This document shows positions 34,934-59,861 of a DNA stretch of 64,000 nt, one piece after another. The position numbers and the translations under genes were made by a program. Each line of letters opens with the position of its first letter. Within the stretch, counting starts at the first letter, position 1. Location: NCBI RefSeq assembly GCF_029962835.1, contig NC_080588.1, positions 64,380,001-64,444,000 on the forward strand, in the 5' to 3' direction. This DNA comes from Magnolia sinica (lineage: Eukaryota > Streptophyta > Magnoliopsida > Magnoliales > Magnoliaceae). The notes under the pieces were generated by a model, which did not search any database, was not told the DNA's origin, and saw only the letters and a list, made by a program, of their open reading frames with translations.

Positions 34934-37900
34934 GTAACATCCTGAATTTTCACTATTTTGGATTTTCAAAATTCCTTTAATTTTTTTTTTAATTTAATTA
35001 ACTTATAATATTACTTATTAACCATTAGGACTCAATGTTAGTGTATACAGGGGTAGTACCAGTAAAGAACCGCACCAGTTCGATTAATCAGCCGTAGGAA
35101 GCCAATGAATCTGCCCGATCACTTGAACATTAGGTGTAGTGTAACGACCCGCCGAACCAGAATAATGTCTTGGGGCGTCCACGTAGGATTTGCCACAAGA
35201 CCGTTCGTTTAAGCTACTCGTAGTGAGGTATCACAAATAAATTAGACCAAGATTTGCCCAATTGATTAGGCCAGACGGGTCCTGATAGAACCTGGTGTGG
35301 GCCTCCAAGCCAGATGACCGTTTACACCCAGCGACAGCCCGTGCGGGCTATACCGCGACGCGAGAAGGTCAGAAAAATCTAAAAATTTAGGGAACCATAG
35401 AGCTCACTGGGCTTGTGAACTATCGCGGACCACGGACTCAGTGGACACCCAGAAGTGGGATCTGGCACTGACTAAATGCACCCCACTTATGCCAGGACTG
35501 GAATCTGGCGCTCACAAATGAAGCTGAGATACAAGGCTATCCACCCGTTGGATCTCTTCTACATTTTCAGGGGAGGTCTAATGAATTTTTCTACACCCGT
35601 CCACAAACTCTAGGACCCGATCGTGGAACGGTGACCGTTGATTGCAAATCGGGCCCGTGCGACCAAACTCCAGATCCGATCGTCCCCAAATTTTACGTGG
35701 CCCTTCATCGGGCCATGGAGCACCTATCCTATTAGTTTCATGGCTAAAGGGCCACCAGAATTGCCCCGAATCTCCAAACAAGCTCTACACCACTCGTTGG
35801 CGGGCCACTAGTTCCGAAACTATAGAATAATGTCCGTCTCATTGGGCTTGACGTCCATCACGGGAATCGGACCTGGGTACTGTCCAGAACCGGTCAACTT
35901 GAGCCGAAGGACGAGTGCATGAGAAGTGCAAATACCCTAAAGGAATGAGTTGGAACTTAAGTGAATTGAGTCATCCACTCTTATGCAAAGTTAAGAATTT
36001 CGGACCGTCGGTTTGCGACCAAACTTTACCCATGGAGTAAGAATATTTTCCTGCTCATATCCGTATAACTGTGGCCCCGATCGACCATCGGTGACCGTTG
36101 AACAGACTTCTAATCATATCTGTCGATCGGCGCATCCAAATGGCGGGCCGATCATGTTCATATATAGATCATCATTAGGGCTAACTATCATACGGTATAT
36201 ATCAATATGTACACCCCATAGTGGGCCCTAGAGCTTAGAAAGACCCTCCCATAGGTCTAGTATAGTAAAAACCCAACACTTGGGGCCATTTCCACCAAAT
36301 CTGACTTTATAAAAGAGCCTCATTTGGGCACCCCCTCTCCCCATACGATTTTTGCCCTAGAGAAAAGAAAGAGAGAAAGAGAGAAAGAGGAAGAGAGAGA
36401 GGAAGAGAAGAAGAGAGAATAGGGTAGGGGAGGCTTTAGTGCTTTCCTTCATTGGTCTCATCCAATCAAGCTCTAGCGTCGATCTTTTCCTTCTGCCGAA
36501 TCCGCCTCATTCACGATTGGAAAGTAAGAAACAAAACCTACTCCCCACCTAGGTTTTTCTAAAATAAATTGCATGAATCATACCTAATTGCTTCTAAATT
36601 GATATAAGAATCATTTTCCCCAATTTTCTAACCCAAGGAGCGCCATGAGTTGGGCGAAACGTCACAAGGTGCGGACTATTGTTCTTAGGTGGCCTAGCAC
36701 CAATTCTAATATGAGATTAATGATTTTGGTTGCTTAGATGTCATATTTGGAGAATTTAGAGAAATCCTAGGAATTGTAGGTTTGTTGAAATAATATGGAA
36801 TTGTTGCTTGACTCTTATGATGATTGATTTTACCTCTCACATGACTTGATGTATGGTTGACAGTATGCCCATGGTCTCTTGATTCTTTTCCTCACATGTG
36901 GTGTTGTTTTGTGTGTATGATTTATAATCTTGTGCACATGATTTCTTGAGATGGAGGAAGTGTTTAACTTCCTCACACACACTCACACACTCACACGCAC
37001 CGTAGTTATTAACAATGTATATTTGCTTGCGAGTACGTCCGTATTGTATGGATGGAATGCATAAGTATAGGATACTATTATGCTTGATGATTTTTGGATA
37101 GTTGGTAGGCTATGGATCCCCTCACCCTCCTTGGGTTGGTCAGGAATTTGAGAAGTGACGGTAGTCCCATCGGTTGAACTATGCTATGGTTAGACCCATG
37201 CGTTTGGACGGGCGTGTTTGGGTGGCTGTAGTTCGACTACATGGGTCCCTTGTACCCGATGGCACTCGCCTCATGCTCGCTTAACTCGGGTGGTCTAGCC
37301 TACCGTCTGACCAACCTTGATTGTTAACCTTGCTTGTTCACACTTGTATGGAACCTGGAACACCCTACAACCGTTGTAGCTCATCAATAATCCACTTAAA
37401 ATTTAGTCCACAGCCTTGTGAGCCGGGCATGGTGGAATGGGATACTGTGTCCGAGCTGTCGGCCTATGCTGGGGTACCGCGCCTCCCCGTAGTGACCGCG
37501 AGCTATCCCTTTCTCATGGCACTCCTCATGTGCTTGAAGTCGGGGATGAGGAACCCGACGGGATCACGGACCGCGGGGTCTCGGCCTCATGCATTGGGGG
37601 GTCTTGGCCTCGCAACCCATTTAGGGATTGATACGTGGGGTGTACCAGATTCCCAAATCTGCTGGATGAATGGACCTAACTAATCACACGGCTAACATGA
37701 TCGCATTGCATCGCACTAGTTAGGGTGGCGACTCGGCAGTCGAGGTCACACTGAGGGAGTGTTGGCATTGGCGATCGTTAGATGGTGTCGCACGAGGGAG
37801 CGTTGTGGTGAGGGCATGCATCATGTCATGCTGCATACATGCGCATTAATAAGATTACTTAGATGTATGTGATTGTCTGCTTTTCATTAAGATCATATTA

Positions 37901-38411
37901 TAATTGATGCCTGTGATAACTTGAGATTAATAGCACCCACTGAGTTGATCACTCACTCCCACTCTGGGACGGTGTTTTAAAACACCAACCAGACCCATTC
38001 ATAGATGCAGGTGACTCGGGACTGGAGGAGCCTGGCGAGACGAGCCTGGACGAGGAGGACGAGCTATCATACTTCCAGTTGATGGACAGTTCTCCACCAG
38101 CTTGAGAGGCGGGATTGGATCGCTGAGCAAGGGCTCAGTTTTATTCCTTTTTCGAGTTAATATTCTTTTACGATTTTGTTGGGTACCATCTTATGCGACC
38201 CATGTATTCCTTTGGACATGTATCTATATATATATATATTTGTATTCAGTGTCTTTCATTTTAGTGGACTTGTGTGGATGTACTTCATGTTCTAGGAGAT
38301 TCCAGGCTGCGCATTTAGATTGGATCGCATATTAATGAAAATTGGCTATAAGTGACCTCGGGAACTCGGGAGTCGAGTATATGCTCGACCCCCGATTTTC
38401 AGGGCGTTACA
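34934..38411 (+). repeat. 5' LTR of the LARD-like element
   Basis: Ends TGTAAC...GTTACA. A promoter-like TTTATAAAAG is at about 36306-36315, so U3 would be ~1.4 kb and R-U5 ~2.1 kb. A GA-rich tract follows at 36365-36420. The block 35140-35765 is foreign to the solo LTRs of the same family and resembles the fragment at 1-1162. The GGTGTTTTAAAACACC palindrome is at 37971-37986, and a short acidic stretch follows. Confidence 0.88.
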
Positions 38412-41400
38412 AGTTGGTATCAGAGCAATAGTTTGGAATTAATTGGGCCATGGGTCATGAACTCACTAACGCATCCGCTGACTTGAGAGGAAACACAATA
38501 GAAAACACGAAATGTTAGGAACTATCCCAGTACTTGAACCGCCAGTCTTAGGTGTAAGGTGAGACTTTCAAGGTGTTAGGGTTCGGTAGCGAGAGGGAGT
38601 AGTAATGCTAGAGAAGGGGATCCGAGAGTCCTACAGTGCCTCGGCCCGTTCTCAAACAAGAATTTGGGAACTTGACAGCAAGACTCGATTCGACTAGCTA
38701 GGAAATTTAGCCATTCCAGTCCACCAAATCCCTAAGGGACTGTTGGGCCAACTGAAATAGGTGAGATTAGGGTGAATGAAATGGTAAGAGTAACCATAGA
38801 TGCATGTGTAAGGTATTGTCCCTGGATATAGTGTATCCCATGTTTTACAATACCCTGTTTAGAATGTATTCAATTAAAGGTAAATCCCGGAATTTTTCTT
38901 TCAAATTACATTCAAAAATTCATCATCATGGGATTTAGAAATCCCATCGTACACCTTCCACTACAAGGCTCATTTTTCAAAGCCTATAAAAGTAATTTTA
39001 AATCCTATTCCACACTCATCCCAAACATGACATTCCCAATCTTGAGTTGGGATTAGCATTTCAATCCCATTTAATACAACTTAATGTCATTGGCCAAACA
39101 GGCCCTAATTCAAATTCCTTTTTTCAACCTATCTCCTTTAATCTTCACCTTCCACTACTCTGTTCCTTTAATTTCTTAGTACTCTCCATGTTAAACACAA
39201 ATCTTGAAGCTCAGAAGATGAAGAGCTATACTCACATTAAAATTTATCGAAAATAGTGTAAACGTAAATAAAATAGATTTTTGACCACTAATAAAGAGGA
39301 ATCTCACAAAATAACTAGGCCCATTGCGTAGATCATCTTCTCCTACCCCAAATTCATATATGGCACGTCGAATAACTCATCCTGGTTTGAAAGATATGGT
39401 CGTGCACCACAGCGCCCGGGCCGGTGCAGCCAACGCCCGATCTAGATGGTCGGGCGGCCCGTTTTTCTGTAATTTCTATCCGACTTCAAAATTTCATATC
39501 TCCTTCGTTACAACTCCGATTTAGGTAATTCAAAAGCTAGATTGAAGCTTAATAAGTCTAGTTTTATATAAAAATAAAATAAAAATAAAATAAAAATTAT
39601 AATATAATTAAATTTGGAGTGAATTGATAACTATTTAAAAATCGTTAGTTTTAAACGACGGTTACTTCTAGAATTTTTACAATTTATTTACAATTTCAAA
39701 TGATATGAAATTTGGTAAGATGACCTAAAACTTGATGGTAAATCATTATAAAAATTTTAAAAATAATTCAGTTACTAAAAGTATAAGAAACATTACAAGA
39801 TATGTCCCCTCCTCCTTTTCAACATACACACGAGTGGGGCCCATTTCCCTTGCTATTTAGGACTATCTAGAGTCCATAAAACCTATCTCTACTACTCCCA
39901 TTACCCTCTACCATCCCTTCTAAACCTTAGAGAAAACTATCACTCTCCCAATCTCAAAACCCAATCCCCAAACCCACCATCTTCTTCTTCACTCTAACCC
40001 ATCTCAATCCTCATTCTCTCAAACCCTTTCCAAACTTATCTCAATCTCATTTCTTCAACTCATTCCTAATCACTTCTCAACTTCCATCCCTTAAATTCAT
40101 TTTCTTAAACTCATCTCCAAATTCATCTCACTCAACATCTCCAAACATATCTTCTCCTCCTTCACAAACCCATCACTAAATCCATTCTCAACACCATCTC
40201 AAACCCATTCACTAAATCTATTCTCAACACATCTCCTTCAACACCCCCATTTTTTTTAACCCATTCTCATCACATTCCCCTTCAACAAAACCCATTCAAA
40301 ACCATCCACTCATTCACTCGCATAAGCTCATTCACAAAACCCAATGATTTGTAGAAATTGATTTTATATACTTTGGCATAGATTGATCATTAGATTGTTG
40401 CAATTGGAAATTTTTATATGAGGTGGTACTAATTAAGAGGCAATAAATTACTGTCCATTTTTAACTTCATTTTAGCCCAATTATTAATATTTTCCATTCC
40501 ATTTCCTTTCATAGGCCAATTGGTGTTGTTGCCACCACTCGAGCACACCCCTTGAGGTTTGTGGCTACAGACCTTAAATTTCTTTTCATTCTCCAAAACT
40601 TTCCAGATAAAGAAAGTTGCTAAGGATGCTACGTAGTCCACCTAATCAATGAGATTTAATTTGCCTCTAGGATCCAACACATCGACCTGGATGGGGTGAT
40701 CTGACCCTTCAACAGCTTGGGCTAGGTATTCCATCCGACAAGTTGCCTTTATTGTCCTGTTGGAGCTATAACAGAAGTTGAGTCTTGATTGACTCCACTA
40801 GCTCTCTCCAAACCACCCTCATTTTCTATACCCTTCTCGAAACCTCCTCACCTACAACACTCCTTCATTCTCTTCATCTTTCCTCTGCCAAAACCCACTC
40901 CCAACATTTATTTTCATCCCATTCTCAACTTTCTTTTCTAAACTCATTCATGAAAACCGACCTCAAACCCATTTTCAAGAGACCCATCCAAGAGCATCCA
41001 GCCTCTACCCATTCCTCTTCATCTTCTCCAAACCCATTGTCAAACCCAATTCAAAATACATTCCCAACACTCATCTTAAAACTCAAACTTCAAACCCCAT
41101 TTCAAATTCATATCCAACCCACATTTCTCAATCCCATTCTCAAATCCTTTTCGAAACCTGACTTCTAAACCCATTTCCCTCTACTCCCACTCCATCACAC
41201 TCACTCTCCCATCCTCAAACCCATCTCCTCCTTCTTCTTCTTTTCTTCTTCTCCAAACTCATCATCAAAAACCCATTACTTCAATCCTTTCTTCTTCTTT
41301 TCATTCTTCCAAAGGCAACCATTGAACTAGAATATGATCATCTGAAACTCAAATGGGCCATCTCATGAAATAGTTGAGAAGGAACATCCACTGTTAGTTA

Positions 41401-42935: not shown

Positions 42936-45900
42936 TATAACATCCTGAATTTTCACTGTTTTGGATTTTCAAAATTCCTTTAATTTTTTTTTTAAATTTA
43001 ATTAACTTATAATATTACTTATTAACCATTAGGACTCAATGTTAGTGTATGCAGGGGTAGTACCCTGCCCGATCACTTGAACATTAGGTGTAGTGTAACG
43101 ACCCGCCGAACTAGAATAATGTCTTAAGGCGTCCACGTAGGATTTGCCACAAGACCGTTCGTTTAAGCTACTCGTAGTGAGGTATCACAAATAAATTAGA
43201 CCAAGATTTGCCCAATTGATTAGGCCAGACGGGTCCTGATAGAACCTGGTGTGGGCCTCCAAGCCAGATGGCCGTTTACACCCAGCGACAGCCCGTGCGG
43301 GCTGTACCGCGACGCGAGAAGGTCAGAAAAATCTAAAAATTTAGGGAACCATAGAGCTCACTGGGCTTGTGAACTATCGCGGACCATGGACCCAGTGGAC
43401 ACCCAGAAGTGGGATCTGACACTGACTAAATGCACCCCACTTATGCAAGGACCAGAATTTGGCGCTCGCAAATGAAGTTGAGATACAAGGCTATCCACCC
43501 GTTGGATTTCTTCTACATTTTCAGGGGAGGTCTAATGAATTTTCCTACACCCATCCACAAACTCTGGGACCCGATCGTGAAACGGTGACCGTTGATTGCA
43601 AATCGAGCCCGTGCGACCAAACTCCAGATCCGATCGTCCCCAAATTTTACGTGGCCCTTCATCGGGCCATGGAGCACCTATCCTATTAGTTTCATGGTCA
43701 GAGGGCCACCAGAACTGCCCTGAATCTCTAAACAAGCTCTACACCACTCGTTGGTGGGCCATTAGTTCCGAAACTATAGAATAATGTCCGTCTCATTGGG
43801 CTTGACGTCCATTGCGGGAATTAGACCTGGGTACTGTCCAGAACCGGTCAACTTGAGCCGAAGGATGAGTGCATGAGAAGTGCAAATACCCTAAAGGAAT
43901 GAGTTGGAACTTAAGTGAATTGAGTCGTCTACTCTTATGCAAAGTTGAGAATTTCGGACCGTCGGTTTGCGACCAAACTTTACCCGTGGAGTAAGGATAT
44001 TTTCCTGCTCATATCCGTATAACTATGGCCCCGATCGACCATCGGTGACCGTTGAACAGACTTCTAATCATATCTGTCGATCGGCGCATCCAAATGGCGG
44101 GCCGATCATGTTCATACGTAGATCATCATTAGGGCTAACTATCATACGATGTATATCAATATGTACACCCCATAGTGGGCCCTAGAGCTTAGAAAGACCC
44201 TCCCATAGGTCTAGTATAGTAAAAACCCAACACTTGGGGCCATTTTCACCAAATCTGGCATTATAAAAGGGCCTCATTTGGGCACCCCCTCTCCCCATAC
44301 GATTTTTGCCCTAGAGAAAAAAAAGAGAGAAAGAGGAAGAGAGAGAGGAAGAGAAGAAGAGAGAGTAGGGTAGGGGAGGCTTTAGTGCTTTCCTTCATTG
44401 GTCTCATCCAATCAAGCTCTAGCGTCGATCTTTTTCTTCCGCCGAATCCACCTCATTCGCGATTGGAAGGTAAGAAACAAAACCTACTCCCCACCTAGGT
44501 TTTTCTAAAATAAATTGCATGAATCCTACCTAATTGCTTCTAAATTAATATAGGAATCATTTTCCCCAATTTTCTAACCCAAGGAGCGCCATGAGTTGGG
44601 CGAAACGTCACAAGGTGCGGACTATTGTTCTTAGGTGGCCTAGCACCAATTCTAATATAAGATTAATGATTTTGGTTGCTTAGATGTCATATTTGGAGAA
44701 TTTAGAGAAATCCTAGGAATTGTAGGTTTGTTGAAATAATATGGAATTGTTGCTTGACTCTTATGATGATTGATTTTACCTCTCACATGACTTGATGTAT
44801 GGTTGACAGTATGCCCATGGTCTCTTGATTCTTTTCCTCACATGTGGTGTTGTTTTGTGTGTATGATTTATAATCTTGTGCACATGATTTCTTGAGATGG
44901 AGGAAGTGTTTAACTTCCTCACACACACTCACACACTCACACGCACCGTAGTTATTAACAATGTATATTTGCTTGCGAGTACGTCCGTATTGTATGGATG
45001 GAATGCATAAGTATATGATACTATTATGCTTGATGATTTTTGGATAGTTGGTATGCTATGGATCCCCTCACCCTCCTTGGGTTGGTCAGGAATTTGAGAA
45101 GTGACGGTAGTCCCATCGGTTGGACTATGCTATGGCTAGACCCATGCGTTTGGACGGGTGTGTTCGGGTGGCTGTAGTTCGACTACATGGGTCCCTTGTA
45201 CCCGATGGCACTCGCCTCATGCTCGCCTGACTCGGGTGGTCTAGCCTACCGTCTGACCAACCTTGATTGTTAACCCTGCTTGTTCACACTTGTATGGAAC
45301 CTGGAACACCCTACAACCGTTGTAGCTCATCAATAACCCACTTGAAATTTAGTCCACAGCCTTGTGAGCCGGACATGGTGGAATGGGACACTGTGTCATA
45401 GCTGTCGGCCTATGCTGGGGTACCGTGCCTCCCCGTAGTGACCACGAGCTATCCCTTTCTCATGGCACTCCTCATGTGCTTGAAGTCTGGGATGAGGAAC
45501 CCGACGGGATCACGGACCGCGGGGTCTCGGCCTCATGCATTGGGGGGTCTTGGCCTCGCAACCCGTTTAGGGCATTGATACGTGGGGTGTACCAGATTCC
45601 CAAATCTGCTGGATGAATGGACCTAACTAATTACACGGCTAACATGATCGCATTATCGCACTAGTTAAGGTGGCGACTCGGCAGTCGAGGTCACACTGAG
45701 GGAGTATTGACATTGGCGATCGTTAGATGGTGTCGCACGAGGAAGCGTTGTGGTGAGGGCATGCATCATGTCATGCTGCATACATGCGCATTAATAAGAT
45801 TACTTAGATGTATGTGATTGTCTGCTTTTCATTAAGATCATATTATAATTGATGCCTGTGATAACTTGAGATTAATAGCACCCACTGAGTTGATCATTCA

Positions 45901-46352
45901 CTCCCACTCTGGGACGGTGTTTTAAAACACCAACCAGACCCATTCATAGATGCAGGTGACTCGGGATTGGAGGAGCCTGGCGAGACGAGCCTGGACGAGG
46001 AGGACGAGCTATCATACTTCCAGTTGATGGACGGTTCTCCGCCAGCTTGAGAGGTGGGATTGGATCGCTGAGCAAGGGCTCAGTTTTATTCCTTTTTCGA
46101 GTTAATATTCTTTTACGATTTTGTTAGGTAGCATCTTATGCGACCCATGTATTCCTTTGGACATGTATATATATATATATTTGTATTCAGTGTCTTTCAT
46201 TTCAGTGGACTTGTGTGGATGTACTTCATGTTCTAGGAGATTCTAGGCTGCGCATTTAGATTGGATCGCATATTAATGAAAATTGGCTATAAGTGACCTC
46301 GGGAACTCGGGAGTCGAGTATATGCTCGACCCCCGATTTCCAGGGCGTTACA
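42936..46352 (+). repeat. 3' LTR of the LARD-like element
   Basis: It repeats 34934-38411 with the same landmarks: the foreign block at 43094-43718, the TATA-like ATTATAAAAG near 44271, the palindrome at 45916-45931 and the end GGGCGTTACA. It is followed directly by the second ACTTG target copy. Confidence 0.88.
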
Positions 46353-46386
46353 ACTTGTCCCTGGATATAGCAAACCCATGGATCTT

Positions 46387-49300
46387 TGTAACATCCTGGA
46401 TTTTCACTGTTTTGGATTTCCAAAAAAAAAAAAAAATCTTAATTTTTTTCTGTGTAATTAACTTATAATGTCACTTATTGACTATTAGCACTCAATGTTA
46501 GTTTAAACACGGGTGAAACCAGTAAAGAACCACACAAGTCCGTTTAATCAACCGTAGAAAGCTAATGAATCTGCCCGATCATTTGAACATCAAGTTTAGC
46601 CCCATGATTCACTCACATTGGACCCAAAAATCTAACTGACCCATCACAAACTAATCAAGACAATCATAACTAAATTAAAGATCTAACTGAAACCAAGTTA
46701 GATAAGGCCCGGATCTTAACTAATAGACCAAATCAACCCCTTTACTCTTTTAGCCAAAAACCAACGGTTTAGAGTAATCATGACCAAATCTCCACTTTCA
46801 CTAGTTATAAATAGGCCACACTATGAACATAGTTAATCTAAACCCTAATCATTGCCCACGAGAAATCTCACTACCAAATTCATTCCAGAAATGCCCTGAT
46901 TTTCCAAACAAGCTCTAGACCGCTCGTTGGTGGGCCATTAGTCCTAAAATTATAAAGTAATGTCCATCTTACTAACCTTGATGTCCATCACGGGAGTCGG
47001 ACCTAGGTAGTGCCTAGAACCGCTCAACTTGAGCTGAAGGACGAGTGCATGAGAAATGCAAATACCCTAAAGAAAGGAGCGGAAACTTAAGTGAATTGGG
47101 TCGTTCACTCTTATGCAAAGTTGAGGATTTCGAACCGTCAGTTTACGACCAAACTTCACATGTGGAGTAAAAATATTTTTCTGCTCATATCCGTATAGCT
47201 GCGGCCCCGATTGACCATCGGTGACCGTTAAACAGACTTCCAATCATATCCGTTGATTAACACATTCAAATGACAGGCCAATCATATTTATACGTAGATC
47301 ATCATTAGGGCTAACTATCCTACTGTGTATATCAACTTGTACACCCTATAGTGGGCCCTAGAGGCTAGAAAAACCCTCCCATAGGGTTAGTATAGTAAAA
47401 ACCCAACACTTGGGGCCATTCGCACTAAATCTGGCATTATAAAAGGGGCTTCTTTAGGGCACCCCTCTCCCTATACGAGGAGAAAGAAGAAAGAAAGAAG
47501 AGGGGATGTGAGAGTGAAGGAGAGTAAGGGTGGACCATAGATCGGGGTGGGGCCCAAAGAAACCAAATCTTGCAACTCCCTATCCCTTCTCCAAAGGAAA
47601 CTCTCCACCACAATCGCAAGGATTGCTCCGTTGATCATATAGGTAAATCTCTCACCCTTTTTTCTTGAAACCCTTGAGTTGAGAAAGGATTAGCATGAAG
47701 TCCTAACATGCATGTGCTTGCTCTAGGGATTCCGGCCTATCAACCCCCAAAATCCACACTCCTAGGTCATTTCTAAGTCTTCAACGATCCATAGGTGCGG
47801 ACTAGTAACCTTAGGTGGCCTAGCACCAATTGTAGTATGAATCTAATGATTTTGTTTGTTTGGATGATGTATTTGGAGAATCTAGGAAAAAAACCTAGGA
47901 ATTGTTGGGTTGTTTGGAATTGTATGGAATTGTTTGTCATGTTGATTTTCTTATATGATGTTGTTCTTGCCTCTCACATGATTTGGTATAAATTGATGAT
48001 CTCATGTTTATGTCTTGTTTAGTTTTCTTCACATGATGTTACCCTATAGCATGTATGCCTTATTAATCCTTGTGCAATTTGGCTTTATGAGGTGTAGGAA
48101 GTGCTTAACTTCCTCACCAACCCACACAACACACATGCACCTTCATTCATGATATTGTTAGCCTCTCTTGTTAGGAGATTCTGAATCGCATGTTGATGAG
48201 TATGATGACATGATGTTGTTTATGCTAGTTGATAACCCTGTTAGTTGGCATGTTATGAATCACCACCCAAACCCTTGGGTTGGTCAGGATTACGAGGAGA
48301 GCGAAGGCGGCCTCGTTGGTAGGATCGTCTTAAGGCTAAACCCATAGATTTGGGCGAATGCGTATGGGCGGCAGTAGTTAAACTACATAGGTCGCTTGTA
48401 CCTGATGCCGTTCCGCCACGTACTTGCCTGAACTCATGCGGTGTAGTCTACTGGCTGACCAACCTTGTTTGTTAACCGTGTTTGATCATACATGTATGGA
48501 ACCTGGCACATCCTACAAGTGTTGTAGCCTATCGATAACTACCTGAAGCCGATCCACTGACTCGTGAGTCGGACATGGTGAAATGAGACACTGTGGCCAA
48601 GCTGTCGGCCTACGCTGGGGTGACACGCCTCCACGTAGCGATCGCGAGCGATCCATTTCTTAACACTCCCCATGTGCTTAAAGTCAAGGATGGGGAACCC
48701 GACGAGATCAAGGATCGCAGTGCTTTGGCCTCACAAGTTGAGGGGTCTTGACCTCACAACCAGTTGAGGGCATTGATACGTGGGGTGTATCAGATTTTTC
48801 AACCTGCTGGATGAATGGACTTAACTAAGAACTCGGCTAACACGATCACATTGCATCGCACTAGTTAGGGCGGTGACTCGGTAGTCGAGGTCGCTCTGAA
48901 GGAGTGTTGGTCCTACGCGATCGTTAAATGGAGTCGCTCGAGGGAGTGTCGTGGCAAGGGCATGCATCATATCATCCGTCATGCATGCGCATTAATAAGA
49001 TTAGGTAGGTGTTTATGAATGATTGTTTTTCATTAAATTTATAATATGAATGATGCTTGTTACAACTTAAGACTAATAACACCCATTGAGTTGATCACTC
49101 ACTCCCACTCTGGGACTATGTTTTAAAACACCAACCAGACTCTTCAATAACTGCAGGTAGCGATGAGTTCGAGGAGCCTGACGGCGCGAGCCTTGACGAG
49201 GATGATGAGCTATCTTACTTCCAGCTGATGGGTGACTCTCCATCGGCTTGATAGACAGGATCTGGATCGCTGAGCAGTAGGCTCAGCTCTATTCTTTTTA

Positions 49301-49547
49301 GACATATTATTTTTTTGTAGTTTTGTTGGGCAACGCCTTGTGCGACCCATTTATATTTTTGGACCTGTATATATACTAAATCTCTTTCATTTTAGTAGAC
49401 TTGCGTGGTTGTGCTTCATATTCCAGAAAATTCCAAGCTGTGCATTTAAACCTGATTAAACACATATTAAGAAAAATCGGTTATAAATGATACTCGGGAA
49501 CTTGGGAGTCGAGTGTATGCACGACTCCCGATTTCTAGGGTGTTACA
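46387..49547 (+). repeat. Solo LTR, long-LTR gypsy family A, copy 2
   Basis: It starts TGTAACATCCTGG and ends GGGTGTTACA. The target duplication ATCTT is perfect (46382-46386 and 49548-49552). Length is 3161 bp. It has a TATA-like ATTATAAAAG near 47437, the TGTTTTAAAACA palindrome at 49129-49140 and the acidic stretch after it. It lacks the foreign block found in the LARD LTRs and instead matches 27095-30257 there. It inserted in the same small DNA element as the LARD, 34 bp away. Confidence 0.88.
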
Positions 49548-49627
49548 ATCTTAAACCAATTCACTGACATCACCATCATTACCTTAACATTTATCCCATC
49601 CTTCCTAATCCCATTCAATCGTGCCTA

Positions 49628-50756: not shown

Positions 50757-51044
50757 ATGTCGTCGTCGACACACAGCCGGAAGTCGAAGAAGCTTCTAGA
50801 ATCCTCTCCAGCGGTGTCCATGGAATCTAAAACCGGCGAGGAATGCCAGATTCCGGCCGAATCGTCAGACGCAAAGAGATCGAAGTCTTCAAAGAAGACG
50901 AAGCGATTGGAGGGGGAAAAGGAGCTGACAACAGAGAAAGCTCCAGCTCTGAAGACGAAGGTCGAGTCCGAGTGCCAGTTCATCGGAGAAACCATTCCGG
51001 CGGAGGAAGCGAGGAAAAGATGGCCAGAAAGATATGTAAAGAAG
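50757..51044 (+). CDS. First exon of a chromomethylase-like DNA methyltransferase (partial)
   Basis: The start codon at 50757 (AGCAAAATGTC) opens 96 codons that end exactly before a good splice donor, AAGAAG|GTGAGA, in phase 0. The protein is Ser/Lys/Glu-rich and low-complexity at first (MSSSTHSRKSKK..., KRSKSSKKTKR). It then ends in ECQFIGETIPAEEARKRWPE followed by RY. That tail matches the pattern just ahead of the BAH domain in plant CMT3-type chromomethylases (FLDEPIPESEAKSTWPDRY in Arabidopsis CMT3, from memory). These enzymes methylate CHG cytosines at H3K9me2 chromatin. No BAH, chromodomain or C5-methyltransferase motif is visible in the remaining 13 kb. The gene therefore either has a very large first intron now filled by the hAT locus and continues beyond the window, or it is truncated. 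The upstream in-frame codons from 50619 are probably leader sequence. Confidence 0.6.
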
Positions 51045-51249
51045 GTGAGACTCCAGACGAGATAAATGACATTTAGGCCCTCTGTTTTTTAAAGTGTGGA
51101 CACCTTTACTGCTTTTGGTATTAGAATGGTATGCAAAACACTTTCTTTCTTACTAAAAATAGAGAAAAGGCTTTAGGAAAGGGAAGAGCTGACCGGGCTT
51201 GCAGGAGCAAACACAGCACACGTTTGTTAGATCTTAGCCGTTGTTTGGG
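51045..51249 (+). other. Start of intron or 3' flank of the CMT-like exon
   Basis: The donor GTGAGA at 51045-51050 is followed by unique-looking DNA up to the point where the duplicated segment begins. Confidence 0.4.
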
Positions 51250-52050
51250 TGGAGCCCGACTTAGGTCTTGCTGGATAAAGGTGTTATTTATATAAAATCA
51301 AAATTAATTTTGATAGATTAAATAATAAAAAGAAATGACGTCCTCATAAATAAGAATATAGTTGCCTCATAATTAAAGAAATTGTAAAAGAAGAAACAAT
51401 GCAGAAGAATGATAATAGAATTTGAAATGAATAGAAATAATCTGAAATTAAAATTTAAGAGCTGAGGCACATTAAAGAAATGCTGTCTAAAAGATAGATA
51501 AGCCCCATTACAGAAATGATGTATTGGGTCATAACTCTCTGCCTCTAGAATATAGCAGCCTTTTGGAGAGCGATCAGCTCAGATCTGGTGCACAAATCAT
51601 CTAAACCCCACCAATACAGCTTAAAATGTTGTCCCAAAAAACAAAAGGAAAAAAAAATAATATTCCAATAGACTACATTTCTATTTAATGAAAAGAACTC
51701 TTTAAAACAATAGTTGTTGTTTTTCCTATGTCCTAAAAATCTAAGCACTCTGAGAGTTCTGTAGTTTAATTTGATATAAGATGGGAGGGAAAATTTTAAC
51801 TTTAAATTTTAAAATTGGAAAAAAAAAGAGACGCAACAGTTGAAAGACTTGGTCTAACTACAACAATCTTAAAATGTGTCAAAACTAATTGATTAACCTT
51901 GAAATTTTGAATTTAAAATTTAAATAAAAAATTTCAAACTAAAAAATTGTATAGGCCTTAGACCACACTCATATTCACACTCTACATCTACGGCCTAGCA
52001 CTCGCACGTATTGTAAATAAATTAACCCAAACTCAACTCATAGTTCCCTC
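51250..52050 (+). repeat. Direct repeat A, left copy, abutting the hAT element
   Basis: It begins TGGAGCCCGACTTAGGTCTT and ends CAACTCATAGTTCCCTC, touching the hAT left terminus at 52051. The same sequence returns at 58294-59196, right after the hAT right terminus. It is AT-rich with no coding potential I recognise. It lacks the TG...CA termini and primer site expected of an LTR. Confidence 0.9.
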
Positions 52051-52339
52051 TAGAGCTGGGCATGATCCCACCCGAAACGATGGATCCGACCCGATCGAAT
52101 CGGTCGGGTCTGATCCGACCCAAACCGAAAGTTAGGATCGAGTCAGATCGAGTAGGCCCACTCAGATCCGACCGCACAACAAGTCGAGTTAATAGCCAAT
52201 CCGATCCGATTGGCATCGCACCCATCTTGATCCGAATTCAGGCCACTCAGCAGCCCAACAACCCATCTTCACCGTTCATCCTCCATTCATTAGGTAGGTT
52301 CCATTTATTTTTTTATTTTTATTTTTCTTTGTATTTTCA

Positions 52340-52500
52340 ATTGGTGGCCCACCCTGGCTCACTGGTGGACCACACTGGCTCAGGCACAGCCATGCAGGTT
52401 GTTGGTGGCCCGCCCTGGCTTGCTGGTGGTCCGGCTGAGGTCGGGACCCCATTAGCTCGGCTGCAATGTCCCGCCCTGGGTCGCTGGCGGCCCGGCCGAG
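52340..52500 (+). repeat. GC-rich minisatellite in the hAT element
   Basis: About three to four diverged units of GTGGCCCRCCCTGGCTYGCT followed by GGTGGYCCGGC are seen. GC content jumps sharply from the surrounding AT-rich DNA. Confidence 0.6.
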
Positions 52501-52502
52501 AT

Positions 52503-52888
52503 ACCCTAACCCTAAACCCTACCCTAATCTTAAACCCTACCCCTAATCCTAAATCCTAACCCAAACCCTAACCTAAACCTTAACCCTAAACCTTAACCCT
52601 AACCCTTAACCTTAAACCTTAAACCTAACCCTAAACCCTTAACCCTAACACTAACCCTAACCCTAAACCCTAAACCCTAACCTTAAATCCTAACCCAAAC
52701 CCTAACCTAAACCCTAAATCGTAAACCTGAACCCTGAACCCTAAACCTTAACCCTAACCCTTAACCCTAAACCTTAAACCTTAAACCTAACCCTAAACCC
52801 TTAACCCTAACCCTAACCCTAACCCTAAACCCTAAACCCTAACCTTAAACCCTAACCCTAAACCTAATTCGTAAACCCTAATTCCTAA
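52503..52888 (+). repeat. Telomere-like CCCTAA/CCCTAAA array
   Basis: Nearly 390 bp of degenerate CCCTAA, CCCTAAA, CCTTAA and CCTAAA units form the array; the plant telomere repeat read from this strand is CCCTAAA. A higher-order duplication of roughly 155-165 bp is visible: the stretch from about 52591 recurs from about 52746. It lies well inside the transposon, so it is interstitial and not a chromosome end. It contains many AAACCCTAA telo-box words. Confidence 0.92.
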
Positions 52889-53141
52889 ATTGCAAGAGTG
52901 TTTAATTTATTTGAAATTTTGAATTAAACAATTAGTAGTTAATTTGTTGGAATTACTATTTACATTGCTTTTTGGTTTTGCCATTTACATTGCTTATTGC
53001 TTACTGCTTACTGCTTAATATGTTTGTATCATTGTATTACATTACTTTTTTTACTTATCTTATTTTTGTGCATTGTATAGTTAGCTTAATATGTATTACG
53101 TTGCCTTTTTTTGTTTAGCTTAGTATTGTGAGTTGTGAGTT

Positions 53142-54353
53142 GTGATTGTGAGTTAGATAATTAGTTGCCTATTTGAAGATTTCTATGTGGTCATACATAG
53201 ATATAGTGTGTTTTTGGTAGCATAGAAATTGCTCAAATTATCCCATTTTTGGACAGTTCAAGGTTAGATGGATAGTATGCTTTCATATAACCTATTTAAA
53301 TGTTCATGCCTGATCTGCAGTCCATCTCCCCATTTCTCTTTGGATATGTTTTTTCCTTTTCATTTCCAATGACAAATATCTTCACATTGCTTAGATATTT
53401 GGCATCAGAATGTAACGGAAGATCAACTTATCTGGAGAGGCATGGGGAGATGCTGCCGGATTTTTTGTGTCGGCGTTTAAATGGGAATATGAAAGTATTA
53501 CAATCATCCAACCTTGGATGGGTAACTAATTTAACTTATTATTGTGACTTGTGATTGTGAGTTAGATAATTAGTTGCCCATTTGAGAATTTCTATGTGAC
53601 CATACATAGATATAGTGTGTTTTTGGTGGCATAAAAATCGCTCAAATTGTCCCATTTTGGACAGTTCAAGGTTAAATGGATGGTACGCTTTCATATAACC
53701 TATTTAAATGTTCATGCCTGATCTGCGGTCCATCTCCTCATTTCTCTCTTGATATGTTCCTTCCTTTTCATTTTCAATGACAAATATCTTCACATTGCTT
53801 AGATATTTGGCATCGGAATGCAACAGAAGATCAACTTATCTGGAGAGGCATGGGGAGATGCTGCCGGATTTTTGGCGTAGGCGTTTAAATGGGAATATGA
53901 AAGTATTACTATCTATCCAACCTTGGATGAGTAACTAATTTAGCTTATTATTGTGACTTGTGATTGTGAGTTAGATAATTAGTTGCCCATTTGAGGATTT
54001 CTATGTGGCTATACATAGATATAATGTGTTTTTGGTGGCATAGAAATCGCTCAAATTGTCCCATTTTTGGACAGTTCAAGGTTAGATAGATAGTATGTTT
54101 TCATATAACTTATTTAAATGTTTATGCCTGATCTGCGGTCCATCTTTCCATTTCTCTCTGGATATGTTTCTTCATTTTCATTTCCAATGATAAATATCTT
54201 CACGTTGCTTAGATATTTGGCATCGGAATGTAACAGAAGATCAACTTATCTGGAGAGGCATGGGGAGATGCTGCCGGATTTTCGGCATAAGCGTTTAAAT
54301 GAGAATATGAAAGTATTACAATCTATCTAACCTTGGATGGGTAACTAATTTAG
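53142..54353 (+). repeat. Three tandem ~409-bp repeats upstream of the transposase
   Basis: Units 53142-53550, 53551-53959 and 53960-54353 each begin GTGATTGTGAGTTAGATAAT and end in CCTTGGATGRGTAACTAATT. All three contain ATCTTCACRTTGCTTAGATA, which resembles a splice acceptor, followed by an open stretch reading LASECN(G/R)RSTYLERHGEM and LPDF. That frame stays open in all three although the sequences differ elsewhere. Single units may be duplicated 5' leader exons or a promoter module; I do not recognise the peptide. Confidence 0.85.
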
Positions 54354-54420
54354 GATTTAGTATAACTCTTTTAACATTAGATTACTAATGCTAATATATT
54401 TAGTATCTTTCAATTATTAG

Positions 54421-56472
54421 ATGGCTGGTGAGGGTCTTTCCAATACCCCAGGCGGTTTGTCAGTCACATCGCCGATGATCCTGAAAGATGAAGGATTAGG
54501 TCTAGAAGATGAAGAGGCGCCCATTGGTACTAGTGCCTCACAGTTACATATTGGGGGAAAAGCGAAAAAAAGATCGGTAGTGTGGGACGATTTTGAAGAA
54601 GTAACCTTGAAAAACGGCACCGTGAAGATACAATGCAAGTACTGCATGGCTCAATATGCTAAGCAAGCAGATGGGTCGACCACAACTCTGAAAAAACATA
54701 GTTTGAAGTGTCATCAAAAAGTGAGAACTCAGACCTTAAGGCAACAGACACTTCCATTTACCCAATCTTTAGTTGGTCCATCGCAAGGTACATTGTCCAT
54801 CTACAAGTATAACAAAGAGCAGGTGAATGAGTGGACGACCAAATTTATTATTACTGATGAAAGACCATTTCAGATGGTAGAGAGTCCTACTTTTGTCGAA
54901 TTTGCCAGATGCCTTAACCCCAGATACGAGAAGGTCTCCCGTACAACAATAAAGAGAGTGTGCATGAAGATGTATGAAAGCGAGAAGCTCAAGTTAAAAG
55001 GACAGTTGGAATCGATTTCTCGAATTAGCCTGACATCAGATTTGTGGACAGCATCCAATCAACGAAAGGGGTATATGTCACTAACTGCTCACTACGTTGA
55101 TGCCGAATGGAAGCTCTGCAAGAGAATCATAAGCTTTCGTTATCTTGCGCCTCCTCATACTGGATTGATGATTTCAAGTTGCATGTACAAATGTCTTGTG
55201 GAGTGGGGAATTGAGAAGAAAATTTCCACAATAACTTTAGATAATGCCTCTGCAAATGATAGCATGATAATGAATTTGCTTAACCAGTTTAGGGCCACTG
55301 GTGACTTGTATTTTGGTGGAAAGATATTTCATGTTAGGTGTTGTACCCACATCTTAAACTTGATTGTACAAGATTGCCTTAAAACAATTGAGCCAATGAT
55401 TGAGAACATAAGAGAGAGTGTGAAGTACATACGAGGGTCACCTTCACGATTATATACATGGAATGAGATGGTGAAGCAGTTGAATTTGTCAACTCAGAGA
55501 ACGATGAAGCTGGATGTCATAACACGTTGGAATTCAACTTTTGAAATGTTGGATTCAGCGATAGCTTTCAGACATGTATTCTCTCACTATGCGGAGCGTG
55601 ATAGTGTGTATCTTTGGTTGCCTTCTGAAGATGATTGGTCAAGAGCTGAATCAGTTCGCAAGTTCCTTTCAGTTTTTTACAACACAATGAAGAAATTTTC
55701 GGGAAGCAAGTATTTAACAACAAATATATTTTTGCCAGAACTTTGGAAGGTAAAAGATGCCTTGCATAAAAGCAGTAGTGGACCAGACTTTTTACAATTA
55801 CTAACCATGGGCATGCAGGTAAAGTTTGATAAGTATTGGTCTGAGTGTAGTTTGGTAATGGCTATTGCAGTCGTTCTTGATCCTCGATACAAGATGATCA
55901 TGGTTGAATTCATATGTAGTAAGTTGTATGGTGCGATGAGTGCCCCTGAGGTCGATAAAATTCGTGATGCAGTCAATGATTTGTACAATTTTTATGTGTG
56001 TGCCGCAAAAGACAAATCTCCCCACGTGGGTTCTAGTTCTGCTATTGATGAACCGTCAGAAGAAACGGTAGATGATTTCATGTCTTACGTCGCACAGCGG
56101 ACTCAAATGCAGACACCTGTATCAGAACTTGAAAACTATATCAAAGAGCCACTTGTAAAATTCAAAGACGATGAATTTGATGTTTTGGACTGGTGGAAGA
56201 TGAAATCTCGTGATTCACAATACCCTGTGCTCTCGTTAATGGCACGAGACATATTATCAATTCCAATTTCAACTGTGGCTTCAGAAGCTGTTTTTAGTAC
56301 GAGGAGTAGGGTTGTAAACAAGTATCGAAGCTCACTTACACCAGAATCGGTTGAAGCACTCATTTGTACACAGGATTGGCTGCGTCCGATATGGGGGAAA
56401 GGGAACTCTGTTGATGATGAGTTCGAGGAAGAGGAGAGTGACAAGCAAGATGAGACAATGCCTGCAGGATAA
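54421..56472 (+). CDS. hAT transposase, BED zinc finger + RNase H-like + dimerisation domain, 683 aa
   Basis: An uninterrupted single-exon frame. The ATG directly follows TTCAATTATTAG, a plausible acceptor for an intron in the 5' leader. Domains: an acidic N-terminus (1-45); a BED-type zinc finger with Cys72, Cys75, His93 and Cys97/His98 (50-100); a DNA-binding/linker part; and an RNase H-like core with Asp207 (LTSDLWTA), Asp274 (ITLDNASAND), the C-x2-H motif at 307-310 (CCTHILNL) and Trp370 (RWNSTFEML). The C-terminal hAT dimerisation region (about 565-660) carries the third acidic residue at Glu622 (VASEAVFS) and ends ALICTQDWLR. The tail is acidic. Length and order match plant DAYSLEEPER/RICESLEEPER-like and active hAT transposases. 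No domesticated-gene context is seen: the frame sits between matched TIRs, so I take it as the element's own enzyme. The usual STGGRV word reads STRSRV here. Confidence 0.95.
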   Translation: MAGEGLSNTPGGLSVTSPMILKDEGLGLEDEEAPIGTSASQLHIGGKAKKRSVVWDDFEEVTLKNGTVKIQCKYCMAQYAKQADGSTTTLKKHSLKCHQKVRTQTLRQQTLPFTQSLVGPSQGTLSIYKYNKEQVNEWTTKFIITDERPFQMVESPTFVEFARCLNPRYEKVSRTTIKRVCMKMYESEKLKLKGQLESISRISLTSDLWTASNQRKGYMSLTAHYVDAEWKLCKRIISFRYLAPPHTGLMISSCMYKCLVEWGIEKKISTITLDNASANDSMIMNLLNQFRATGDLYFGGKIFHVRCCTHILNLIVQDCLKTIEPMIENIRESVKYIRGSPSRLYTWNEMVKQLNLSTQRTMKLDVITRWNSTFEMLDSAIAFRHVFSHYAERDSVYLWLPSEDDWSRAESVRKFLSVFYNTMKKFSGSKYLTTNIFLPELWKVKDALHKSSSGPDFLQLLTMGMQVKFDKYWSECSLVMAIAVVLDPRYKMIMVEFICSKLYGAMSAPEVDKIRDAVNDLYNFYVCAAKDKSPHVGSSSAIDEPSEETVDDFMSYVAQRTQMQTPVSELENYIKEPLVKFKDDEFDVLDWWKMKSRDSQYPVLSLMARDILSIPISTVASEAVFSTRSRVVNKYRSSLTPESVEALICTQDWLRPIWGKGNSVDDEFEEEESDKQDETMPAG

Positions 56473-56742
56473 GACACTGCCTTCTATTTCTCTTGCATTT
56501 GCTTACAAGTTATATCAGGATGTTTGTAATTATTTTTTTGATGGCTTAAAATGTAATATTTTATGGGTAGATGGATATTTATCTCTTTTTATTTGTATTA
56601 TTCAATCAGTTAATGTTGCATCTTATATTACATGGTTGGGTAATTGCGTTTATTCATCAATATAACTTTTTTTTTTTTCGTTGCCTTAACCTAACCAGAT
56701 ATTTTTATTTTAAAATATACACCTGTATATATGTAATTGGAA

Positions 56743-57429
56743 GATGATGCATTGCCAGATATTGGGGATTATGGACTCCAAGTCTACTCCCAATATGGAA
56801 AGATAAAGTTAAAATGTAAGTAGTGCGGAAAGCAATTTGGAAACAAAATTAATCGGCTGAAATTACATTTGGCTTGTCGAGGAGAGGACGCTGCACCATG
56901 TAACAAAGCTCCTCAGGAAGTTCAGGATCGACTCAAATACAAAGACTTTCTACACCCCCTACAATTAAAACCAATACAACCAGCCATAGAATATATAAAA
57001 GTAAGCCTATTATAAATGAAGAAAGGTTAAGCAGAGGAACTGCCTTCAGTTCCAGGCCTTCCATAGCTAGTAGAGAAGAAGAACAAGAGAGAATTTTAGG
57101 GAAACAAGACGAACACGATTATCAAGAGGCCGTAAAAGAAAGCTTGAAAATGACATCTAGATCAAGGAATACCAGACAACAACATCCCATCCTTCCGAGA
57201 CAACATGATGCTAAAGCAGGCACGAGCACGAGTAAATCATCAAAGTTTCTTAAAAGTCTCGGAGCATTTTATAGGTGGTTGGGAATCTCGTACAAATCGG
57301 ATTATAGAAAAGCGGCTGAAAAAACTTGTTCAATCTATGAATGAGGACGATGGGAAGATATCTCCACCATCTAATTTAGCAGAGGTGAATGACCATCTTT
57401 TGGACACCTCTAGCTCGGAGTCGGCTTAG
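56743..57429 (+). pseudogene. Broken second BED-finger gene inside the hAT element
   Basis: In the frame through 56755 the sequence reads LQVYSQYGKIKLKCK, a TAG stop at 56821-56823, then CGKQFGNKINRLKLHLACRG, EDAAPCNKAPQEVQ. This is a BED finger of the other common plant hAT type (pattern CxxCGK...NRLKxHLA...DVAPCKKVP). The stop replaces the residue expected before the second Cys. Further codons in shifted frames (57144-57344 with FLKSLGAFYRWLGISYKSDY, and 57205-57429) look like later pieces. The finger differs from the one in the intact transposase, so it is a separate gene relic: an older transposase, an accessory gene or a capture. Confidence 0.65.
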
Positions 57430-57770
57430 AGTTCTCCTGCAGTTGAAGCCGTAAAAAGAGAATCAAATGATGATTATAGTGATGAAGGTTGGAGGTGGAG
57501 GAGGGGCTTACTATTACGGAAAAGGTTTATTTGGTTACATGCTACAAAGACATTCATCATACGAAGGTTATTGAATGTATGAAAGTTTTACCTAATCTGT
57601 ATGTGTATGTTAGGTTTATTTACTTTTGATTTTGGACAGGGTTTATTTACCTTGTTCGTTTTACGGATGTAGTTTATTTACTTTGGAAGTTGGATCTATG
57701 ATATTTTAAGTTTTTAATAGTTGAATGATCTAGCTAAATGGTCTAACGTATTGGTATCATGCACTAATGC

Positions 57771-57841
57771 GCATATGCGAATATGGGATCATGGCATATG
57801 CGATTTGACACAAATGTGAATCGCATATGTTGCATATGCGA
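57771..57841. repeat. GCATATGCGA motif cluster with an 11-bp hairpin
   Basis: GCATATGCGA occurs at 57771-57780, 57794-57803 and 57832-57841, and inverted at 57820-57829. CATATGCGATT (57795-57805) and AATCGCATATG (57819-57829) are perfect inverted arms around a 13-nt loop. It lies about 450-520 bp inside the hAT right end. Confidence 0.8.
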
Positions 57842-58293
57842 TGTACGGACTCTTAATCTCTCTCATATATTTTCACTCCAAGTCATCTTAATCTCTCTTT
57901 TAATTGATTTTATTTCTCTCAAATATATTTTAAATATATGTAAAATTAGTTATTTAATAACTTAGGAAAGTTACCCTTAATTTCTTTTTTCTTTTTTCTT
58001 TTTTTTTTTTTCCTTTTTTTACAATTTTTTTGGAAAATTTCCATATTTTTTTATTTTAAAAAATAATTAAAATAGAAGACTCGATCCGAACTGTACCCAC
58101 CCCGATCCGACTCGGTTTTCCTGACCGAGTCGGACTCGGTTCGGGTCAGGCCAGCAGGGCATCGGATCGGATTGAGTCAGCCCTGCTGGACTCGGTCCTG
58201 GATCAGATCGAGTTCGGGTTAGTTGCTTGAAAAATTCGGATTAAGTCAAGTTGGACCCAATCCGGTCTGACTCGACTCGATGCCCACCTGTAG

Positions 58294-59196
58294 TGGAGCC
58301 CGACTTAGGTCTTGCTGGATAAAGGTGTTATTTATATAAAATCAAAACTAATTTTGATAGATTAAATAATAAAAAAGAAATGACCTCCTCATAAATAAGA
58401 ATATAGTTTGTGTAACAATTAAACAAATTGCAAAAGAAGAAACAATGCAGAAGAATGATAATAGAATTTGAAATGAATAGAAATAATCTGAAATTAAAAT
58501 TAAAGAGCTGAGGCACATTACAGAAATGTTGTCTAAAAGACAGATAAGCCCTCACTAAAGATCATAGAATTTGAAATGAATAGAAATAATCCAAAATTAA
58601 AATTAAAGAGCAGAGGCACATTACAGAAATGCTGTCTAAAAGATGGATAAGCTCCATTACAGAAATTATGCATTGGGTCATAAGTCTCTGCCTTTAGAAT
58701 ATAGCAGCCTTTTGGAGAACAATCAGCTCAGATCTGGTGCACAAATCATCTAAACCCTACCAATACAGCTTAAGATGTTGTCCCAAAAAACAAAAGGAAA
58801 AAATAAATATATTCCAATAGATTACATTTCTCCTTATGAAAAAGAACTGTTTAAAGCAATAGTTGTTGTTTTTCCTATGTCCTAAAAATCTAAGCACTGA
58901 GAGTTCTGTAATTTAATTTCGGTATAAGATTGGAGGGGAAATTTTAACTTTAAATGTTAAAATTGAAAAAAATAAAAATAAAAATGAGAGGCAACATTTG
59001 AAAGACTTGGTCTAACTACAACAATCTTAAAATGTGTCAAAACTAATTGATTAACCTTGAAAATTTGAATTTAAAATTTAAATAAAAAATTATATAGGCC
59101 TGAGACCACAATCATACTCACACGCTACATCCACGGCCTAGCACGCCCACGTATTGTAAATAAATTAACCCAATCTCAACTCACAGTTCCCTCTAG
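58294..59196 (+). repeat. Direct repeat A, right copy
   Basis: It begins TGGAGCCCGACTTAGGTCTT immediately after the hAT right terminus and ends CAGTTCCCTCTAG before unrelated DNA. It is about 100 bp longer than the left copy, mainly because a segment of about 115 bp (AGAATTTGAAATGAATAGAA...) is internally duplicated near 58455-58680. It also differs by scattered substitutions and small indels, so the duplication is not very recent. Confidence 0.9.
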
Positions 59197-59861
59197 TTGG
59201 TTTGCTTTACAAATTTAAGGGACAGTGATATTATCTTGTAAGGACTTCTTTTTCCATACTCCCATTCAATGTGATATAGAAAAAGACTAAATCACATATG
59301 ACAAAAGTATAAAAGACAAAAAAAATCATTAAAAATTATTTTCTAATTTAAAAATTCTTAATTTTTACTAACAGAAAGGTCCACTCAATAGACAGATCAC
59401 ATGTGTTCATTGACGATGGTGATTGGTCATGTTATTTCATCATTGGCTATCATTTTCTCAAGCTTGTGGCCCACCTTTTTTGGTGATTGTCTTGATTTTT
59501 GGCTTGGGGCAGTTCCTAGATGCACCCCATGTGATGAACGGTCTGGATCTTAAAAACATGTTTTCTATTTGCAGGTGTTTTACATTGACTCTTCGTATTT
59601 GGCTAATACCTCTCCCATCCCTACCTAGTAATGGAGAGGTGTTTTACATTGACTCTGCGTATTTGGGTAATACCTCTCCCATCCCTACCTAGTAATGGAG
59701 AGGAGCTCTTAAAAAATGAGGCAAGTCCAATGCTCAAGTGGACCACACCCATTGAAAGGATGGGAGTGCTGTGAATGAGCACTCGGCCTATGTTATTGTA
59801 TGTAAATATTTCACTAACTAATGTTGTGGAACAACTCTTTTAATACTTTTCCCCACTGCAG
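59197..59861. other. MITE-like DNA with a 64-bp tandem duplication
   Basis: 59573-59636 and 59637-59700 are near-identical 64-bp units (AGGTGTTTTACATTGACTCT ... ACCTAGTAATGGAG). The surrounding words (TCAAGTGGACCACACC) belong to the dispersed MITE vocabulary. No gene. Confidence 0.6.

Follow-up and report, generated by a model that had tools for sequence, protein, structure and literature searches.

How did a single DNA transposon come to stand exactly between two copies of its own flanking DNA? This question is raised by a locus in a 64,000-nucleotide stretch of the Magnolia sinica genome (assembly GCF_029962835.1, contig NC_080588.1, positions 64,380,001 to 64,444,000), called the window below, which is part of contig C16 in the 1.84 Gb genome that we searched; all positions are those of the window unless another contig is named. 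Here a hAT element is preceded by a repeat copy A and followed by a second copy A' in the same orientation (Table 1). It is well supported that the hAT made this duplication with its own ends, because A and A' abut the element without extra bases, and not because the 8-bp sequences at its two ends fail to match. The exact route is not settled. The route we favour, with a probability of roughly one half, is insertion of a hybrid element composed of the ends of two sister copies into a chromatid free of the element, and an exchange between two hAT insertions ranks second.

What is directly seen is that a 0.8-kb segment, whose start and end we call e1 and e2, is present twice, and that each hAT terminus is joined cleanly at one of these boundaries. 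A, the hAT and A' adjoin base to base with zero spare bases, and homology between A and A' ends in unrelated DNA on both outer sides. When the breakpoint is marked by a slash, the junctions read as follows: TTGTTTGG / GTGGAGCC at the outer boundary e1, GTTCCCTC / TAGAGCTG between A and the hAT, CACCTGTA / GTGGAGCC between the hAT and A', and GTTCCCTC / TAGTTGGT at the outer boundary e2. The sole ambiguity is TAG (59194-59196), which lies next to A' and also forms the first letters of the hAT. A preliminary description of the window had given the copies as 51250-52050 and 58294-59196; the end-to-end alignment agrees with these limits except that both copies start one base earlier (51249 and 58293) and that A' ends at 59193. 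The alignment also bears out, to the base, its claims that the copies end exactly at the hAT termini and that the inner 8-bp flanks are unmatched (GTTCCCTC and GTGGAGCC are alike at 3/8), and homology extending past the hAT ends, which it had named as counter-evidence, was not found at either terminus. Over 783 aligned bases, A and A' differ by 45 substitutions (23 transitions and 22 transversions), corresponding to a Kimura two-parameter distance of 0.060, and by 11 gap events; identity is 94% over the aligned bases, 88-94% in local matches and 94% in the 269 bp proximal to e1. One of the gaps is a 103-bp stretch missing from A, attributable to a direct repeat within A' (58454-58549 with 58557-58652), where A' has a tandem duplication of about 103 bp.

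The same preliminary description had held that A should not be a dispersed repeat, and in this respect the genome search gave a divided answer. Most of A does belong to a dispersed repeat, designated R, which resembles a long terminal repeat (LTR; TGTTATTT...CTAACA) and has a candidate 5-bp target copy, AAAGG, shifted by one base on the right side. In 9/11 fetched R loci the match begins at 58324-58328, which corresponds to 51280-51284, and in the other two (L014 and L015) only further in, but the 33 bp that precede R in A are present in A' as well. Because this flank outside R was duplicated too, A and A' are one local duplication and not two R insertions, and R predates the duplication. Independent insertions of a dispersed repeat were rejected on the same 33 bp and on the identity between A and A', which tops that of every other scored genome match to A (at most 81%). 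We also rejected the view that A and A' are the LTRs of one retrotransposon enclosing the hAT, since R runs about 180 bp beyond A' on the right and is cut by the hAT on the left, and A begins 33 bp ahead of R. The R copies on contigs C11 (L017) and C2 (L016) are homologous across e2, reaching 59376 and 59373, respectively. At e2 itself, A' reads GTTCCCTC / TAGTTGG and the C11 copy GTTCCCTC / TAGTAGG; A' thus continues into R as the C11 copy does, and therefore no scar of hAT excision is visible at e2. At e1, for which there is no comparison sequence, no doubled 8-mer was seen. The C2 locus (C2:6733500-6739500) carries two oppositely oriented R copies within about 3 kb.

Membership of the element in the hAT superfamily is indicated by PF05699, PF14372 and zf-BED, which score above cut-off in its 683-aa protein, by matches of this transposase to Hermes and related transposase structures at about 1e-12, and by short terminal inverted repeats common to dispersed copies. 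These copies also verify the termini: the first base of the element is also the start point in 37/39 non-self scored matches to the left 200 bp, and its last base is the end point in 35/40 non-self scored rows for the right 253 bp, the searches having scored the best 40 of 869 (left) and of 4746 (right) first-look candidates, which represent a sample of the closest copies. The family makes 8-bp target duplications, which are often worn. The flanking 8-mers of the six other copies with both ends placed agree at 7/8 in L026 and L031, 6/8 in L035, 5/8 in L072, and 4/8 in L025 and L073, and in L073 CATATA abuts both hAT ends; by comparison, the window copy lacks an ordinary 8-bp target duplication. 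L025 (C4:86129526-86134556), which we noted together with L054 and L055, shows no flanking duplication in the flank read and is possibly a deletion or exchange product. When the two flanks of eight sibling copies were compared with each other over the available flank, three gave short matches only (19-44 bp) and five gave none, whereas the window as a control gave matches of 269 and 236 bp; one end was only roughly placed for L033, L029, L023 and L034. The A-hAT-A' arrangement was thus not seen in this small sample, and any statement on its frequency is limited to these eight copies.

The preliminary description had offered, as an alternative, insertion of the hAT at the junction of an A-A' tandem duplication that already existed. 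A later chance insertion of this kind should have left 8 extra target-copied bases at the junction, and their absence contradicts it; an exact 8-bp loss would be needed in addition, and the insertion would have had to hit the single right base. On its side are the intactness of the transposase open reading frame (ORF) and its private transversions, which at 0.7% fall below the 1.4% per lineage of A and A' (interval 0.8-2.0%), as if the hAT were somewhat younger; sibling ORFs average 1.8%, pooled over 13 siblings with L024 omitted as nearly identical to L023. We consider a late insertion very improbable. Half the distance between A and A' is about 0.03, and private change in the window copy is 0.036 in the ORF, against 0.055-0.090 in the 13 siblings, and 0.067 in 56473-57772, against 0.053-0.115 in ten siblings. 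These ages are roughly compatible with a hAT that has stayed at the site from around the duplication onwards, and not with a very recent insertion. A hAT much younger than the duplication was rejected because the noncoding 3' stretch is as diverged as that of old siblings, though the ORF and both ends are less diverged.

Hybrid-element insertion, the route we prefer, would proceed as follows. Initially, one chromosome would have carried the hAT at e1. Once it had replicated, a left end from one sister and a right end from its counterpart would act together as a hybrid element and insert at e2 of a chromatid without the hAT. This would fuse the chromatid, up to e2, with the left end of the hAT; next in order would come the hAT itself and all of the DNA right of e1. 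The expected product is A-hAT-A' in which neither outer site is disturbed, the right-hand 8-mer is the old one (GTGGAGCC) and the left-hand 8-mer is the new one (GTTCCCTC), and the reciprocal chromatid would lack the segment. The copies would then have diverged by about 3% each with the hAT staying in place. The locus shows the direct duplication, the breakpoints at both element termini and the clean outer sites (e2 by comparison with C11, e1 without comparison) that belong to such an event. Supporting points are the exact junctions at termini verified in the family, the unscarred e2, the local origin of A and A', the target duplications of the family, and the rough agreement in timing between the A/A' half-distance and the private change of the ORF. 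Hybrid element insertion was reportedly described for Drosophila P elements by Gray and by Preston, both in 1996. It is alike in producing duplications and deletions flanking the element and, by our own derivation, in placing the element at the junction of a direct duplication, with the outer sites undisturbed, when it inserts into an element-free chromatid; it is unlike in concerning the P superfamily in the laboratory, as against a hAT here. The sections of PMC3744419 and PMC2775673 drawn on here describe hybrid-element insertion for Drosophila P and sister-chromatid transposition (SCT) for Ac/Ds.

Several points weigh against this interpretation. The intact ORF is hard to reconcile with fully neutral evolution after the duplication: for 78 private changes, 7.2 lesions would be expected and none was seen (P 0.0008), and for 57-59 neutral changes an intact ORF has P 0.004-0.005. 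Mismatched 8-mers alone are not diagnostic, as 3/6 placed copies agree at only 4-5/8, and the scar-free status of e1 comes solely from the absent doubled 8-mer. The evidence is from one haplotype of one species. According to the part of PMC3744419 that bears on this, SCT products in maize are bridges, breaks, inverted duplications and deletions, and hemimethylation restricts which alternative reactions Ac ends perform.

The preliminary description had pointed to maize Ac, where reversed-ends transposition or re-replication generates duplications; its general idea of a duplication driven by transposon ends is supported by the exact abutment, but the specific analogy fits poorly. Reversed-ends transposition does produce direct duplications, placing hAT ends precisely on the breakpoints and leaving one flank unmatched (PMC3744419), and the maize type, whose natural cases measure about 0.12-1.26 kb, shares with our locus the hAT superfamily, the direct duplication, the breakpoints exactly at hAT termini and the 8-mer mismatch of the middle element. 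In that model, however, a hAT stands at the start of each repeat, and one 8-bp target copy is common to the first and the middle element (PMC3744419). The Magnolia locus has one hAT: no outer element is present at the start of the first repeat, no 8-mer is shared or doubled, e1 shows no recognisable footprint where an outer hAT might have been replaced, and e2 is clean; no hAT match was found in the window outside 52051-58292 at 1e-5. The composite insertions produced by Ac re-replication likewise have flanking DNA duplicated beside hAT ends, but, as described in PMC4270019, they use termini from two elements and have 8-bp target duplications on either side, which are not seen here. We therefore give the maize routes a very small chance.

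A third possibility is that one hAT, once excised, attached its two ends to targets separated by 0.8 kb. The targets would have been on sister chromatids, or on the two strands of the same duplex followed by long fill-in, and the outcome would amount to an 802-bp target duplication. This would yield the observed structure, the clean outer sites and two unrelated 8-mers without any earlier hAT at e1. The normal behaviour of the elements opposes it: hAT transposases cut the target strands 8 bp apart, 3/6 placed copies of the family keep 6-7/8 of the flanking 8-mer, and we know of no precedent for so wide a stagger. Such a split insertion appears improbable, if somewhat less so than the maize routes.

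The strongest competitor of hybrid-element insertion is unequal exchange by ectopic recombination between two hATs of like orientation, carried at e1 by one haplotype and at e2 by the other. Its product would keep one hAT between the two copies, bordered by the e2 8-mer on its left and the e1 8-mer on its right, with clean outer sites, and thus it predicts the same junctions as those observed. The Bar-type event in Drosophila is such an unequal exchange between transposon copies. The family is also multi-copy (1576 first-look ORF candidates, of which 40 were scored), but two independent insertions in the same orientation 0.8 kb apart are required. In the passages of PMC3744419 concerned, three copies are the expected outcome of nonallelic homologous recombination between two Ac elements; this applies when both chromosomes carry both elements, an arrangement not assumed for the exchange considered here.

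A recombinant element might betray itself by its composition. For inversions, PMC2775673, as far as its pertinent part goes, treats element copies as chimeric after ectopic recombination and non-chimeric after hybrid-element insertion. The Galileo inversions of the same source resemble our locus in that the target copies on either side of an element do not match; they differ in being inversions and not a direct duplication, and the chimerism that defines the Galileo cases, in that part of the text, is not shown here. Divergence along the window hAT is indeed uneven, a point in favour of an exchange: its ratio to that of siblings is about 0.53 up to 56520, 1.1 for 56520-57675 and 0.46 to the right end, and a one-changepoint gain as large as that observed arose in 5/300 simulations. 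A simple left/right mosaic is not seen, however, as both ends are alike and the middle stretch alone differs; a two-part mosaic is not supported, as a model with this middle stretch and a right end back at the low rate fits better. Private changes in the middle stretch match the other subfamily in only 3/32 and 3/29 cases, no excess over control means of 0.12 and 0.09. It is likely, though not proven, that the window hAT comes from a lineage whose activity outlasted that of its siblings, and that the sequence beyond the stop codon was free of constraint; it is not proven because synonymous change in the ORF is also low (24 changes, against 25-53 in siblings). All 29 other copies compared, drawn from the 39 other scored ORF copies, have at least one stop and at least one frameshift relative to the window frame. 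Domestication of the transposase is unsupported, since its 24 synonymous and 46 nonsynonymous changes resemble those of the dead siblings (13 pooled, Fisher p 0.60), though stops and frameshifts are absent. Taken on both sides, an exchange seems a less probable origin than hybrid-element insertion, and we hold it possible but doubtful.

Table 1. Features of the duplicated locus and its surroundings (window positions)
Feature	Position	Strand	Description	Basis
Probable first exon of chromomethylase (CMT3/ZMET2-like) gene, upstream of A	50757..51044	+		PDB matches
Left copy A	51249..52050	+	802 bp; 33 bp non-repeat flank and first ~770 bp of repeat R	A/A' alignment; R boundary from R matches
Non-R flank common to A and A'	51249..51281	+	33 bp	R-match starts; sequence in both copies
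hAT element	52051..58292	+	6242 bp; termini TAGAGCTGGGCA (at 52051)...TGCCCACCTGTA (ending 58292)	Termini in scored genomic copies; transposase domains
Degenerate telomere-like CCCTAAA-type array within hAT	52503..52889	+	~390 bp	Sequence; self-matches
Three tandem ~409-bp repeats within hAT, upstream of ORF	53133..54353	+	~92% identity	Self-matches
Intact transposase ORF	54421..56472	+	683 aa; BED zinc finger, hAT RNase-H-like, hAT dimerisation; Hermes-like	Domain and structure matches
Right copy A'	58293..59193	+	901 bp; starts at base after hAT right terminus	A/A' alignment
Remainder of R past breakpoint e2	59194..59373	+	R ends in CTAACA	Homology to C11 (L017) and C2 (L016) copies

Within the hAT, downstream of the transposase, broken reading frames at 56824-57426 resemble, by eye, a second hAT protein of the BED-finger/DUF659 type. 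Upstream of A, the preliminary description had placed a chromomethylase (CMT)-like exon just before the duplication. The exon itself is suggested by the only PDB matches at E<=1, three DNA (cytosine-5)-methyltransferase 1 sequences at E about 0.5 over residues 71-94 (24 residues), whose chains we take to be maize ZMET2; these are suggestive only of the start of a chromomethylase. No further CMT exon was recognised by eye in open frames of at least 60 codons from 46000 on, and for this reason we make no claim of an intronic position for the duplication. Elsewhere in the window, a sequence of 1.2-1.3 kb occurs in three copies at about 78% identity (48242-49552, 45045-46356 and 37216-38412).

A literature search for duplications flanking a single element led to the maize Ac and P-element work, and nothing closer was found among the matches listed. 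The locus looks like a naturally occurring example of a known but seldom observed side reaction of such elements; the published hAT cases compared here do not show this form of it. Our tentative suggestion, which we hold somewhat less firmly than the favoured route itself, is that plant hAT elements in nature also undergo the hybrid-element insertion known from Drosophila P. Such an event would leave one hAT between two direct copies of adjoining DNA, with clean outer sites. The pattern to look for, flanking DNA copied up to each terminus together with unmatched 8-mers, is simple, and plant genomes can be searched for it. Screens that require two hAT copies, such as the published maize screen, would miss it; and if single-hAT duplications of this form are common, such screens undercount them, and transposon ends create small segmental duplications with no partner element needed elsewhere.

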